This document shows positions 16,953-20,875 of a stretch of DNA of 64,000 bases, in pieces. Origin of the DNA: Vulgatibacter incomptus (GTDB lineage: Bacteria > Myxococcota > Myxococcia > Myxococcales > Vulgatibacteraceae); the NCBI RefSeq assembly GCF_001263175.1, contig NZ_CP012332.1:3163501-3227500 (forward strand), written 5' to 3'. A program made the translations under genes and the position numbers. Every line of letters starts with the position of its first letter. Position 1 is the stretch's first letter. Below the pieces are notes generated by a model that searched no databases, was not told the origin of the DNA, and saw only the letters and a program-made list of their open reading frames with translations.

Positions 16953-17091
16953 CGGCCGCCCCGAGGGGCCCTGGCTTCCCTTTTTTCCCGTTCTCGGCGA
17001 TCTGGCGCGTGCCCGGGTGACACGTCTGCGAGTCCGCGGTGTTCTACCCGGACGAACGCGGAGGCACTGGCCGCGGGAGAGGGAGAGAGGC

Positions 17092-17574
17092 TTGGCCGTC
17101 GACGTCGAGGAGCTCTACGAGCGCTACGGGCCCATGGTCCTGCGCAGGTGCCGCTCGCTGTTGCGGGACGACGACCGCGCGCTCGACGCGATGCAGGACG
17201 TCTTCGTGCAGGTGCTGCGCCACGAAGCGCGGCTCTCCGCGGAGGCGCCTGCCGGGCTCCTCCTGCGGATGGCGACCAACGTCTGCCTGAACCTGATCCG
17301 GAGAAACCGCCGCAAGCCGGAGGATCCGAAGGAGGAGCTCCTGCTCCGGATCGCCTCGGACGATCGGCTGGAGTCCCGATCGATCGCGCGGGCGGCGCTC
17401 TCGAGGCTCTTCGGCAAGGAGCAGGAGAGCACGCGGACGATGGCGGTGATGCATCTGGTCGACGGTTTGACGCTGGAGGAGGTCGCCCGAGAGGTGGGCC
17501 TCTCCGTCTCCGGCGTGCGCAAGCGGCTGCGAACGCTCAAGGAGCGGGCTGTCGCGATGGAAGAGGCGGCGTGA
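17092..17574 (+). CDS. ECF-type RNA polymerase sigma factor
   Basis: Sigma70-family extracytoplasmic-function factor of about 160 residues. Region 2 is visible as LYERYGPMVLRRCRSLLRDD, then ALDAMQDVFVQVLRH and MATNVCLNLIRRNRRKP. Region 4 is the C-terminal helix-turn-helix LTLEEVAREVGLSVSGVRKRLRTLKERA. I place the start at TTG 17092, directly after a GAGAGAGG stretch, because the frame upstream (to 17017) encodes nonhomologous Arg-rich sequence. The stop overlaps the next gene by one base. It is first in a three-gene operon with a membrane anti-sigma-like protein and a caspase-fold outer-membrane protein. Confidence 0.88.
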   Translation: MAVDVEELYERYGPMVLRRCRSLLRDDDRALDAMQDVFVQVLRHEARLSAEAPAGLLLRMATNVCLNLIRRNRRKPEDPKEELLLRIASDDRLESRSIARAALSRLFGKEQESTRTMAVMHLVDGLTLEEVAREVGLSVSGVRKRLRTLKERAVAMEEAA

Positions 17575-18395
17575 TGGAAAGACGCGTTCCCGACTGGCTC
17601 CTGGAAAAACTGGCCCTCGGCGAGCTCGGCCGCGACGAGGCCGCCGGAGTCCGCAGGCGCCTCGAGGCGGAGGATGGCGGCGAGGCGAGGTTGAAGTCGC
17701 TTCACGCCTCCAATCGCGAGCTCCTCGAGCGATACCCCGCAGCTCCCATGGCCCGCGCCATCCGGCAGAAGGTCGATGGACGACGAGGGGCCTTCGCGCC
17801 AGCGAGCTCCGCACCCGCGCGCTCAGCCTCGCGGCAGCCGGCCTTCGGCCGCCGCCTCGTCCTGGGCGTGGCGGCAGCGGCGCCCGTCGCCTTGGCGGCG
17901 GTCCTTCTGATCGCGGACGGCTCCCCGGCGCCGATCGTCGATCCGCGCGGCCCCGAGACCACCCGATCCAAAGGGCTGTCGCCGCTCCTCCAGGTCCATC
18001 GCCAGGGCGCAGAGGCCGCCGAGCTACTGGCGGACGGCGCGGACGTTCGCGCCCACGAGATCCTCCAGCTCAGCTACATCGCCGCCGGATCGGCCTACGG
18101 GGTCATCCTCTCGATCGACGGCAGCGCGAGCGTGACCCGTCACCTCCCCGAAGCGGGGGAGGCCGCCAGCCTCCTCGAGTCGAGCGGCGCAGTCGCCCTC
18201 CCCCACGCCTTCGAGCTCGACGACGCCCCGGGTTTCGAACGCTTCGTCTTCGTGACCGCACCCGAGCCCTTCGCCGTCGAGCCCGTGATCGCCGCGGCGC
18301 GACGGGTCGCCTCGGATCCCGCCGCCGATCGCGTCCCCCTCGCCCTCCCGGCAGGCCTCGAGCAGGCCTCGTTCCTCGTGAGGAAGCCCCGATGA
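17574..18395 (+). CDS. Membrane anti-sigma-factor-like protein
   Basis: Product of 273 residues encoded directly after the ECF sigma factor, sharing one base (TGATG). The N-terminal 70 residues are charged and helical (DWLLEKLALGELGRDEAAGV), like anti-sigma domains without a clear zinc motif. One transmembrane helix lies at about 100-117 (VLGVAAAAPVALAAVLLIA) and a periplasmic beta-rich domain of about 150 residues follows (ILQLSYIAAGSAYGVILSIDG). The layout suggests that it holds the sigma factor at the membrane and senses an envelope signal. GTG 17571 could also serve as start. Function is inferred from position and topology; the family is not recognised from sequence. Confidence 0.75.
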   Translation: MERRVPDWLLEKLALGELGRDEAAGVRRRLEAEDGGEARLKSLHASNRELLERYPAAPMARAIRQKVDGRRGAFAPASSAPARSASRQPAFGRRLVLGVAAAAPVALAAVLLIADGSPAPIVDPRGPETTRSKGLSPLLQVHRQGAEAAELLADGADVRAHEILQLSYIAAGSAYGVILSIDGSASVTRHLPEAGEAASLLESSGAVALPHAFELDDAPGFERFVFVTAPEPFAVEPVIAAARRVASDPAADRVPLALPAGLEQASFLVRKPR

Positions 18396-20875
18396 AATCC
18401 GTTCTTTCCGCCCTGCTGCTCCTGAACCTCGCGATCGCCCCGACGGCCTCGGCGGAACATCCTCAGCCGACCCGGCGCTTCAGCCTGATCGTCGGCGCGA
18501 ACGACGGCGGCGCGGGTCGCGTCCGCCTCCGCTACGCGGGCTCCGACGCCGACGCCGTCGCGCGGCTCTTCGTCGAGCTCGGAGGGATCTCCCGCGGCGA
18601 CCAGGTCGTCCTCCTCGATCCCGACCGGGCTGCGCTCCAGCGGGGCCTCGAGGAAGTGCGAAAGCGGCTCGCCCGTGCCCCGGCAGAGGGATCGCGACCC
18701 GAGCTCTTCTTCTACTACTCCGGCCATTCCGATGAGGAGGGCCTCCTCCTCGGTGGCGAGCGCTTCGGCTACGCGGAGCTCCGCCACGCCCTCGACGAGA
18801 TGCCGGCGGACGTGCGCGTCGCCATCCTCGACTCCTGCGCGTCGGGCGCCCTCACCCGCCGCAAGGGGGGCGTGGCGCGGCCGTCGTTCCTGGTCGACGC
18901 CTCCACTGCGGTGAAGGGCCACGCCTTCCTCACGGCCAGCTCCGCCGACGAGGCGGCGCAGGAGTCCGACCGCCTCGGCGCCTCCTTCTTCACCCACCAC
19001 CTCGTCTCGGGCCTCCGCGGCGCCGCCGACTCCACGGGGAGCGGCAAGGTCACGCTCACCGAGGCCTACCGCTACGCCTTCCGCGAGACCCTGGCCCAGA
19101 CCGAGCGCACCACCGGCGGCGCCCAGCACCCTGGCTACGAGATGCAGCTCGTCGGCTCCGGCGATCTGGTGATGACCGACCTGCGCGCCACCTCCGCCGG
19201 GCTGGTCGTGGGCGACGACGTCGAAGGCCGCATCTACGTCCGCGACGTCGCGGGCAGCCTCGTGGTGGAGGTGCGCAAGCTGCCGGCCGCGCCGCTCGAG
19301 CTCGGTCTGGCGCCGGGGGACTACACCCTCACCCTCGAGGAGAGGGGCTCCCTCTACGAATCCCGGATCGTCCTCACCGAGGGCAGGCGTACCCGGCTCG
19401 ACCGCGCGCAGCTCCGCGAGGTCCAGGGCGAGGCAACGGTGCGGCGAGGCGGCGACGATGCCCCCGGCGTCGACGGATCCGCGAAAGATTACGAGGTCAT
19501 CCCCTTCAGCGCCGCCGTCTTCCCCGAGATCGGCTCCTCCCGCCGCACGATCAATCACTTCGGGCTCCACCTGATTGGAGGCCGCGCCACCCGCCTCGAC
19601 GGGACCCAGATCAGCCTCGGCTTCAACATGGTCGACGAGCTCGCCGACGGCGCGCAGGTCACCTCTGGCGCGAACTTCGCCGGCGGCGGACTCAGCGGGA
19701 CCCAGGTCGCAGTCGGCGCCAACTTCTCGGGTGGCCGCGTGGGCGGCTCCCAGGTCTCCATCGGCGCCAACGTCGCCGATGGGGAGCTGAGCGGAGCACA
19801 GGTCTCCGTCGGCGCGAACCATGCCGGCGGCCGCATGGAAGGCGCGCAGGTGTCCGTGGGCGCGAACTTCGCAGGAGGCGACGCGAGCGGATCCCAGATC
19901 TCCGTCGGCACGAACTTCGCGGGTGGGAACCTGGACGGAGCTCAGATCGGCGTCGGGGTGAACGGCACGCCCGGGCGCGTCGACGGCTACCAGGCCTCGG
20001 TAGGGGGAAACTACGCCGGAGGCGACGTCGTGGGCGCCCAGCTCGGCGTCGGGGCCAACTTCGCGCGCGGCGACTTCAACGGGCTCCAGGCGGCGGTCGG
20101 CGCGAACGTCGTCACCGGCTCCTTCGTGGGCGCCCAGCTCGGCGTAGGCGCGAGCGTCATCGGAGGTGACTTCCGGGGCCTCCAGACCTCGGTCGGCGCC
20201 AGCGTCGTCGGCGAGCGGATGTCCGGGCTCCAGACCGGTGTCCTCGGCTACGCCCGCAGCCTCGACGGCCTCCAGCTCTCCCTCGTCAACGTGGCGGGCG
20301 AGGTCTCGGGCTCGCAGATCGGCCTCGTAAACATCTCCGGCGGCTCGACCGACTTCCAGCTCGGCCTCGTCAACTACGCCGACGACTCCGACGCGGCCAT
20401 TGGCGTCGTGAACGTCTCGCGGAAGGGCCGCAAGGATCTCGAGCTCTTCGCGACCGACGTGAACTACGTCAACCTCGCCGCCAAGCTCGGCTCGCGCTAC
20501 ACCTACGGGATCCTCACCGCCGGCGTCTCGCCGGGCCGCGAGGAGCCCGGCACCCGATGGAGCTTCGGCGCCGGCGTTGGCACCCGCCTCGACCTCGGCT
20601 GGACCGTCGACTTCCTCGACCTCGACCTCACCGCCCACAACGTCCACCGAGGCTGGAACTTCGATTCCAGCACCCTCCTCAACGTGCTGCGCATGGGCGC
20701 GGGCTTCCGCTTCGCCGAGAGGTTCGCGGTGGTCCTCGGCCCCACGCTGAACCTCAACCTGGACTTCTACGCGACGGATCGCTCCAAGATCGGCCTCGTC
20801 CCCGGCCTGCACCACGCGGGGAAGAACGTCGACCTCCGCTTCTGGCCCGGCGTGTTCGCGGGCGTCCAGATCTGA
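18392..20875 (+). CDS. Secreted caspase-fold (C14) protein fused to 16-residue repeats and an outer-membrane barrel
   Basis: Product of 827 residues starting with a signal peptide (about 1-22, ending TASAE). The caspase-like domain spans about 25-270 with catalytic His in FFYYSGHSDEEG and Cys in VAILDSCASGAL. After a beta-rich linker come 13 consecutive 16-residue units from residue 406 (QVSVGANFAGGDASGS type), then four units of 14-15 residues (QLSLVNVAGEVSGS). These resemble the surface repeats of Leptospira LA_2272-type proteins and should form a beta solenoid. The last 130 residues look like an outer-membrane barrel (VDFLDLDLTAHNVHRGWNF, FWPGVFAGVQI). ATG overlaps the anti-sigma stop. A protease anchored in the outer membrane is inferred. 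Confidence 0.85.
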   Translation: MKSVLSALLLLNLAIAPTASAEHPQPTRRFSLIVGANDGGAGRVRLRYAGSDADAVARLFVELGGISRGDQVVLLDPDRAALQRGLEEVRKRLARAPAEGSRPELFFYYSGHSDEEGLLLGGERFGYAELRHALDEMPADVRVAILDSCASGALTRRKGGVARPSFLVDASTAVKGHAFLTASSADEAAQESDRLGASFFTHHLVSGLRGAADSTGSGKVTLTEAYRYAFRETLAQTERTTGGAQHPGYEMQLVGSGDLVMTDLRATSAGLVVGDDVEGRIYVRDVAGSLVVEVRKLPAAPLELGLAPGDYTLTLEERGSLYESRIVLTEGRRTRLDRAQLREVQGEATVRRGGDDAPGVDGSAKDYEVIPFSAAVFPEIGSSRRTINHFGLHLIGGRATRLDGTQISLGFNMVDELADGAQVTSGANFAGGGLSGTQVAVGANFSGGRVGGSQVSIGANVADGELSGAQVSVGANHAGGRMEGAQVSVGANFAGGDASGSQISVGTNFAGGNLDGAQIGVGVNGTPGRVDGYQASVGGNYAGGDVVGAQLGVGANFARGDFNGLQAAVGANVVTGSFVGAQLGVGASVIGGDFRGLQTSVGASVVGERMSGLQTGVLGYARSLDGLQLSLVNVAGEVSGSQIGLVNISGGSTDFQLGLVNYADDSDAAIGVVNVSRKGRKDLELFATDVNYVNLAAKLGSRYTYGILTAGVSPGREEPGTRWSFGAGVGTRLDLGWTVDFLDLDLTAHNVHRGWNFDSSTLLNVLRMGAGFRFAERFAVVLGPTLNLNLDFYATDRSKIGLVPGLHHAGKNVDLRFWPGVFAGVQI

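Follow-up and report, generated by a model that had tools for sequence, protein, structure and literature searches.

A conserved sigma factor, anti-sigma factor and exported caspase triad in Vulgatibacter incomptus: a predicted caspase-gated sigma switch

Organisation of the locus

The window analysed here is a stretch of 64,000 nucleotides of the Vulgatibacter incomptus genome (contig NZ_CP012332.1 of assembly GCF_001263175.1, positions 3,163,501 to 3,227,500). It contains a triad of genes, all on the + strand, for an extracytoplasmic function (ECF) sigma factor (17092–17574), a likely membrane anti-sigma factor (17574–18395) and an exported caspase (18392–20875). As the first-pass annotation of this DNA had it, the three genes are joined by stop/start overlaps, of four bases at both junctions; the ATG of the anti-sigma gene at 17574 falls on the end of the sigma gene and the ATG of the caspase gene at 18392 lies inside the anti-sigma stop (18395). 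The triad is part of a conserved system, in which the bacterial caspase probably has a role in signalling rather than in cell death. The features of the locus are listed below in window coordinates, with the evidence for each in brackets.

17017–17043, + strand: predicted autoregulatory sigma promoter, GTGACAC-N14-GGTGTT (conserved upstream element)
17092–17574, + strand: ECF sigma factor, 160 residues from a TTG start (Sigma70_r2, TIGR02937; start by homology with relatives)
17574–18395, + strand: likely membrane anti-sigma factor, 273 residues (AlphaFold2 model, weak NF052375 match, DUF4384 in relatives)
17859–17915, + strand: membrane-spanning segment of the anti-sigma factor, residues about 96–114 (hydropathy, AlphaFold2 helix 103–114)
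17961–17975, + strand: predicted site-1 cleavage motif T130-R-S-K133/G134 in the anti-sigma linker (conservation, AlphaFold2 disorder)
18392–20875, + strand: caspase – beta domain – beta-helix – barrel protein, predicted to be exported, 827 residues (profiles, AlphaFold2)
18470–19153, + strand: caspase (C14) domain, residues 27–254 (PF00656; structure match to metacaspase-4)
18725–18727, + strand: catalytic His112 (invariant in 112 of 112 relatives)
18836–18838, + strand: catalytic Cys149 (invariant in 112 of 112 relatives)
18854–18871, + strand: predicted autoprocessing motif T155-R-R-K158/G159-G in the loop after Cys149 (conservation, low model confidence)
19169–19423, + strand: beta-sandwich domain after the caspase domain, residues 260–344 (AlphaFold2; common to three paralogues)
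19544–20431, + strand: LA_2272-type repeats, predicted beta-helix, residues 385–680 (NF047436, repeat count, match to 3p4g)
20429–20869, + strand: C-terminal outer-membrane-type beta-barrel, residues about 680–826 (AlphaFold2 strands, weak NspA/PagL matches)

The genome (4.35 Mb, one contig) encodes three C14 proteins, and all three genes sit in sigma – membrane protein – caspase triads with four-base overlaps. The C-termini of the three paralogous caspases differ; the long beta-helix is found in the window copy only, and the other two run straight into the barrel. The other two triads (L004, G000:C1:1834000-1846000; L005, G000:C1:2118000-2130000) have anti-sigma factors with an HxxxCxxC zinc motif and are without the GTRACA promoter element.

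The three proteins

By family profile, and by the presence of regions 2 and 4 without region 3, the first gene product is an ECF factor, in agreement with the first-pass annotation. It matches Sigma70_r2 (E 1.2e-12) and TIGR02937 (61.5 bits, cut-off 42.9), with Sigma70_r4_2 slightly under its cut-off (23.8 against 25.7).

The second gene product is likely a membrane anti-sigma factor, judging from its position, its topology, a weak NF052375 match at the N-terminus (E 2e-5, far below the NCBIfam cut-off) and the DUF4384 matches in 28 of its 57 relatives. The helical N-terminus, the single membrane helix and the gene adjoining that of the sigma factor all fit this role. The AlphaFold2 model, built from an alignment of the 57 relatives, has a mean predicted local distance difference test (pLDDT) score of 86 and begins with four helices (7–73), the predicted cytoplasmic domain. 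The single membrane helix is flanked on either side by disorder, and the chain ends in an immunoglobulin-like beta domain (134–273), predicted to be periplasmic. The membrane helix is modelled at 103–114 and the hydrophobic segment extends over about 96–114 by hydropathy. A PDB sequence search with the protein gave no match, and fold searches with the model returned the beta domain alone and nothing for the N-terminal domain; the proposed sigma-binding function of that domain is thus drawn from its helices, topology and position.

The third gene product belongs to peptidase family C14 by fold, profile and dyad. The match to PF00656 is 38.6 bits (cut-off 21.4), and the catalytic residues are His112 in YYSGHSD and Cys149 in DSCASGA, the same two motifs that the first-pass annotation had picked out (the former as YYSGHSDE); both residues are invariant in all 112 related caspases. 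The EACC1-associated caspase profile NF047832 is not reached (63.6 bits against 140). The AlphaFold2 model of the whole protein (pLDDT 85, predicted template modelling score 0.50) has a caspase fold, a beta-helix and a C-terminal barrel, and the order along the chain is an N-terminal signal sequence, the caspase domain, a small beta domain, the LA_2272-type repeats and the barrel. Structure comparison (VIA) matches the caspase domain (residues 27–266) to metacaspase-4 (6w8r, Z 19.8, 2.7 Å over 206 residues) and residues 393–663 to the beta-helical antifreeze protein 3p4g (Z 19.8). LA_2272_repeat (NF047436) scores above its cut-off (27.5 bits against 25). There are 13 strict 16-residue repeats at residues 404–596 and degenerate ones continue to about 680, so the solenoid of 17 repeats described earlier is a fair count. 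The barrel is indicated by the modelled strands, by weak matches to NspA and PagL and by a WPGxxxGxxI end kept in many relatives.

From these features the caspase is probably exported and anchored in the outer membrane by its barrel, and proteolytic activity with a basic P1 residue is predicted. The first-pass annotation had left the protease facing either the surface or the periplasm. A periplasmic caspase domain is favoured and surface exposure is less likely, because the domain lies N-terminal to the repeats and the barrel and its proposed substrate is at the inner membrane. The barrel and the beta-helix are likely sensing or anchoring parts, since they vary among the paralogues while the caspase and the linker motif do not.

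Distribution of the triad

As a query against genome contigs the single whole-length window caspase gave no match, and a profile of the three paralogues was used instead. With this profile, 155 of 195 Myxococcota genomes prove to have relatives, commonly 3–11 each. In a second collection it yields 447 confirmed loci, and the best 80 of the 447 include Fibrobacter, Spirochaetota, Candidatus Fermentibacteria and gammaproteobacterial assemblies. In about 90 of the 112 loci analysed, a sigma gene and the gene of a single-pass membrane protein lie directly upstream of the caspase gene, mostly with −4 overlaps of the ATGA type; the remainder are truncated where a contig or locus stops, or no sigma gene was detected in them. 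At this frequency the layout is not a matter of chance. The triad occurs in well over a hundred genomes, among them Myxococcota, Fibrobacterota, Spirochaetota and members of further phyla. Its partners also travel together: in ten myxobacterial genomes, 43 of 50 anti-sigma matches are directly followed by a caspase gene, and 12 of the 14 genomes without a close caspase match also have no anti-sigma match, the other two (G032 and G037) having one C14 gene elsewhere each. The first-pass annotation had allowed that the caspase domain might prove dead or cytoplasmic, or its neighbours unconserved; the dyad is intact, an export signal is present and the neighbours are conserved.

Four Myxococcus-type loci (L122, L124, L125 and L127) have a window-type sigma/anti-sigma pair followed by a small exported barrel-only protein of about 203 residues, which ends in WPGLQLGMHF and resembles the C-terminus of the caspase protein; there is no caspase domain at these loci, and similar caspases are encoded elsewhere in the genome. 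At G137:C1:6172705-6176071 a myxobacterial caspase gene is apparently in two halves about 2.4 kb apart, probably through an insertion.

A motif shared by the caspase and the anti-sigma factor

Between its membrane helix and its beta domain the anti-sigma factor has a linker with a Lys-Gly pair, K133 and G134, invariant in 57 of 57 relatives, mostly in the form R-x-K-G (Arg131 in 44 of 57). The other linker positions (112–129) are variable, mostly at about 3 bits of entropy. In the model the pLDDT falls to about 42 just before the motif, and the beta domain begins at 134–138. In 61 of 64 non-redundant anti-sigma factors a K-G pair is found no more than 42 residues from the membrane helix, compared with 4.8% of background windows from the same proteins; two of the three outside this count have the Lys at the extreme end of the 42-residue window. 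The same R-x-K-G occurs in the caspase, nine to ten residues past the catalytic Cys (R156 in 62 of 63, K158 and G159 in 63 of 63), and K-G is found between C+6 and C+12 in all 112 caspases. The motif is at the edge of a poorly ordered loop (residues 158–170, pLDDT below 50). In animal caspases the loop after the catalytic Cys is the site of self-processing. Non-metazoan C14 enzymes favour Arg or Lys at P1 (PMC5756287). The shared K-G is probably the cut site in both proteins, as predicted from conservation and modelled disorder, and since this apparent cutting site is common to both, the caspase is probably the enzyme that cleaves the anti-sigma factor.

The motif mostly changes in step in the two proteins. 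K-G is kept in both proteins of the divergent triads L203–L216. In a second clade of exported caspases, present in 107 of 195 genomes, the Cys is followed by Arg-Gly (for example, DACSSYFLAYGRGPGG), and on the side of its anti-sigma factors Ala-Arg-Gly, Ser-Arg-Gly or Ala-Arg-Ser stands directly outside the membrane; the R-G agreement persists where the sigma and anti-sigma genes are divergently transcribed from the caspase gene. By clade, P1 is K-G/K-G in that of the window and R-G/R-G in the second (about 50 non-redundant pairs), where the caspase/anti-sigma combinations are K/K in two (L274, L275), R/K in two (L269, L272) and R/R in the rest. The within-clade p value of 0.002 was computed with L272 misread and is slightly too small, and the p values ignore shared ancestry. 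In one anti-sigma group the motif is also mostly lost where no caspase is adjacent. In this group, from Anaeromyxobacteraceae-type genomes, [K/R]-G follows the membrane helix in nine of nine proteins with an adjacent caspase and in one of nine without (Fisher 4e-4, with only about three independent lineages). In L302–L305 the linker is shortened and the motif lost, and the beta domain is kept.

Two other accounts of the motif were rejected. It is not required for the fold of the anti-sigma beta domain, as L302–L305 have the domain without the motif. Nor is it a general feature of secreted caspases, as the R-G clade, in step with its anti-sigma factors, and a lipoprotein clade (L179–L186) differ there. 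The lipoprotein caspases of L179–L186 are encoded beside sigma/anti-sigma genes and have E-K-G just past the lipobox, not in the loop after the Cys; their anti-sigma factors have K-G outside the membrane helix. The E-K-G near the lipobox may be a site of self-release.

Promoter and predicted regulon

The element GT[GA]ACA-N15-[AGC]GTGT lies upstream of the sigma gene in 64 of 80 related operons from several phyla (61 with a spacer of exactly 15), compared with a shuffled-sequence rate of 0.3%. The operons without it are largely of other sub-types and include the two paralogues of the window genome. The element is conserved across phyla and is predicted to be autoregulatory for the sigma operon. 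Across all 4.35 Mb of the window genome the strict pattern has a single occurrence, before the window sigma gene. Myxococcaceae-type genomes have up to about 20 occurrences, and a reversed control pattern gives 0–2 in most. For 18 of 20 strict sites from three Archangium-type genomes an open reading frame starts 9–60 bases downstream, and by inspection nearly all the products bear signal or lipoprotein sequences. They include DUF2807 adhesin domains, beta-lactamase-fold hydrolases, MauG-like (cytochrome) peroxidases, alpha/beta hydrolases and two LA_2272-repeat proteins without a caspase (L355 and L366, Archangium-type genomes); because of the latter, the LA_2272 repeats appear to be part of the output as well as of the sensor-protease. 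The upstream conservation and the exported products indicate that the GTRACA element behaves as the sigma factor's own promoter and that the output is envelope proteins. The regulon predicted in relatives suggests envelope remodelling, not death; the cell-death role entertained in the first-pass annotation is not supported by these exported proteins and lipoproteins, and its self-contained envelope signalling system is supported by the conserved neighbours and the exported caspase with an intact dyad.

In one Archangium genome the promoter element stands straight before an anti-sigma/caspase pair without a sigma gene (L036/L128, G062:C1:410513-412381), and a sigma/anti-sigma pair without a caspase (L132) lies elsewhere in the same genome, a split version of the system.

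Proposed mechanism and alternatives

The best explanation of these data, and one that we consider quite likely, is that the caspase activates itself and then cuts the anti-sigma factor, freeing the sigma factor. The anti-sigma factor would hold the sigma factor at the inner membrane, and the exported caspase would sit in the outer membrane by way of its C-terminal barrel, its caspase domain lying on the periplasmic side; the beta-helix, the barrel and the beta domain would be the likely sensing parts. An envelope signal would lead the caspase to cut its own loop at TRRK158/G159 and so become active. The active caspase would then cut the anti-sigma factor at the matching TRSK133/G134, past the membrane helix and ahead of the periplasmic domain (site-1), and a housekeeping site-2 protease together with cytoplasmic proteases would complete the breakdown; site-2 (M50) protease genes are present in the window genome. 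From the GTGACA-N15-GGTGTT promoter the freed sigma factor would drive its own operon, a positive feedback, and where relatives have larger regulons it would also drive surface protein and lipoprotein genes. The first-pass annotation had placed the protease under the control of its own sigma factor; control probably runs the other way, from the caspase to the sigma factor by way of the anti-sigma cut, or rather around a loop. On balance we also think that the proposal holds for a widespread class, in which a caspase tethered to the outer membrane and dedicated to this task is both the sensor and the site-1 protease for an ECF anti-sigma factor and uses the same [K/R]-G for its substrate and for its own activation.

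Several observations weigh against this mechanism. A caspase anchored in the outer membrane has to bridge the periplasm to get at the inner membrane, cleavage is a prediction from motif comparison, and the K-G of the anti-sigma factor could have a structural role in capping its first beta strand. The K/R agreement is mostly a contrast between two clades with few independent changes, and L269 and L272 are mismatched, with R-G in the caspase and K-G in the anti-sigma factor (ARG and RAKG, respectively, in L272). The motif-loss comparison draws on about three lineages, and in one of them (L311) R-G is retained although no caspase is encoded next to it. Window-type anti-sigma factors in L122, L124, L125, L127 and L132 keep K-G without an adjacent caspase; given the unlinked caspases of the same type in those genomes, action in trans on these proteins is possible.

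Alternatively, the caspase could be the main output of the sigma factor, acting in envelope protein turnover, defence or lysis, with the anti-sigma factor inactivated by another protease or by ligand binding. The sole strict promoter match in the window genome drives the operon itself, so that the caspase is the one sure target, and prokaryotic caspases are usually discussed in connection with cell death (PMC3501461). We regard this as unlikely, as it leaves unexplained the common [K/R]-G motif, its clade-wise agreement and its loss from anti-sigma factors without a caspase neighbour, and as the same promoter element in Myxococcaceae precedes exported, non-death genes. Signalling by contact instead of cleavage, with the anti-sigma K-G binding a partner or capping a strand and the caspase K-G serving in folding, seems to us distinctly improbable. 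The position of G134 at the start of the beta domain would suit it, as would cell-surface signalling, in which the anti-sigma factor is shielded or exposed by a receptor in the outer membrane (PMC11637429), and the barrel-only proteins of the four Myxococcus loci without a caspase might act in this way; however, an invariant His and Cys in 112 of 112 caspases is unexpected if catalysis is unneeded, and L302–L305 have lost the motif yet retain the beta domain. We give least credence to a third protease, periplasmic and trypsin-like or orthocaspase-like, that cleaves the two proteins, one in the caspase loop and the other in the anti-sigma linker, at their shared basic-Gly site, since, although both motifs would be its substrates and an exposed basic-Gly would suit many proteases, the motif tracks the caspase gene beside the anti-sigma gene and the conserved triad has no other protease gene.

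What bacterial caspase homologues cut under physiological conditions is a long-standing question, and they are usually treated as death enzymes. For the present family a substrate, a cut site, an activation site, a promoter and an output are predicted. If caspase-gated release of the sigma factor is correct, many of the ‘metacaspases’ of Myxococcota, Fibrobacterota and Spirochaetota would be signal transducers and not death enzymes, and there would be a new class of protease in anti-sigma signalling together with a motif rule that pairs caspases with anti-sigma factors. It would be, to our knowledge, the first case of caspase signalling in the periplasm for which the substrate is defined.

Comparison with known systems

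The first-pass annotation knew of no described system with this layout. The gene association itself was already noted in a survey by Asplund-Samuelsson et al. 2012 (PMC3501461), with sigma-70 genes in operons that encode metacaspases in Myxococcus (M. xanthus), Anaeromyxobacter, Haliangium, Sorangium, Ralstonia and Fibrobacter. The anti-sigma factor, the shared cleavage motif, the promoter and the mechanism are not mentioned in the part of that survey drawn on here and appear unreported in the open-access literature searched, which gave no account of a caspase in the periplasm with an anti-sigma factor as its target. Caspase-family proteins also stand beside ECF sigma factors in the EACC2-caspase systems, with an EACC2 domain ahead of the caspase, an ECF sigma factor and a DUF1822 TPR partner (PMC8195603), and in ECF54 with its CHAT proteins, discussed as being without an anti-sigma factor (PMC8999054); the present triad differs from both in its conserved membrane anti-sigma factor and its exported caspase.

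The closest parallel in logic, a caspase-clan protease that cuts the inhibitor of an ECF-like sigma factor, is the CRISPR-associated CASP system (Cas7-11/Csx29, Csx30, CASP-sigma), in which the TPR-CHAT protein Csx29 cuts Csx30 and frees the sigma factor (PMC10028731). CASP is cytoplasmic and RNA-activated, with a CHAT domain and a soluble inhibitor, whereas the window triad has an exported C14 caspase, a membrane-spanning inhibitor and no CRISPR. Pfam and NCBIfam profiles gave no match to CHAT, TPR, a TonB-dependent receptor or the FecR domain in the three triad proteins. The combination of an ECF sigma factor, a membrane anti-sigma factor and an outer-membrane beta-barrel partner is that of FecI/FecR/FecA cell-surface signalling (PMC11637429); there the partner is a TonB-dependent receptor working with FecR, and in the window the outer-membrane partner bears a caspase domain. 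Like RseA/DegS/RseP, the triad has an ECF sigma factor and a likely single-pass anti-sigma factor, which would be cut just outside the membrane helix and then at site 2. The site-1 enzyme of that pathway is a serine protease (DegS) or signal peptidase, whereas in the window it would be a caspase, encoded in the same operon as the anti-sigma factor and carrying the same cut motif.

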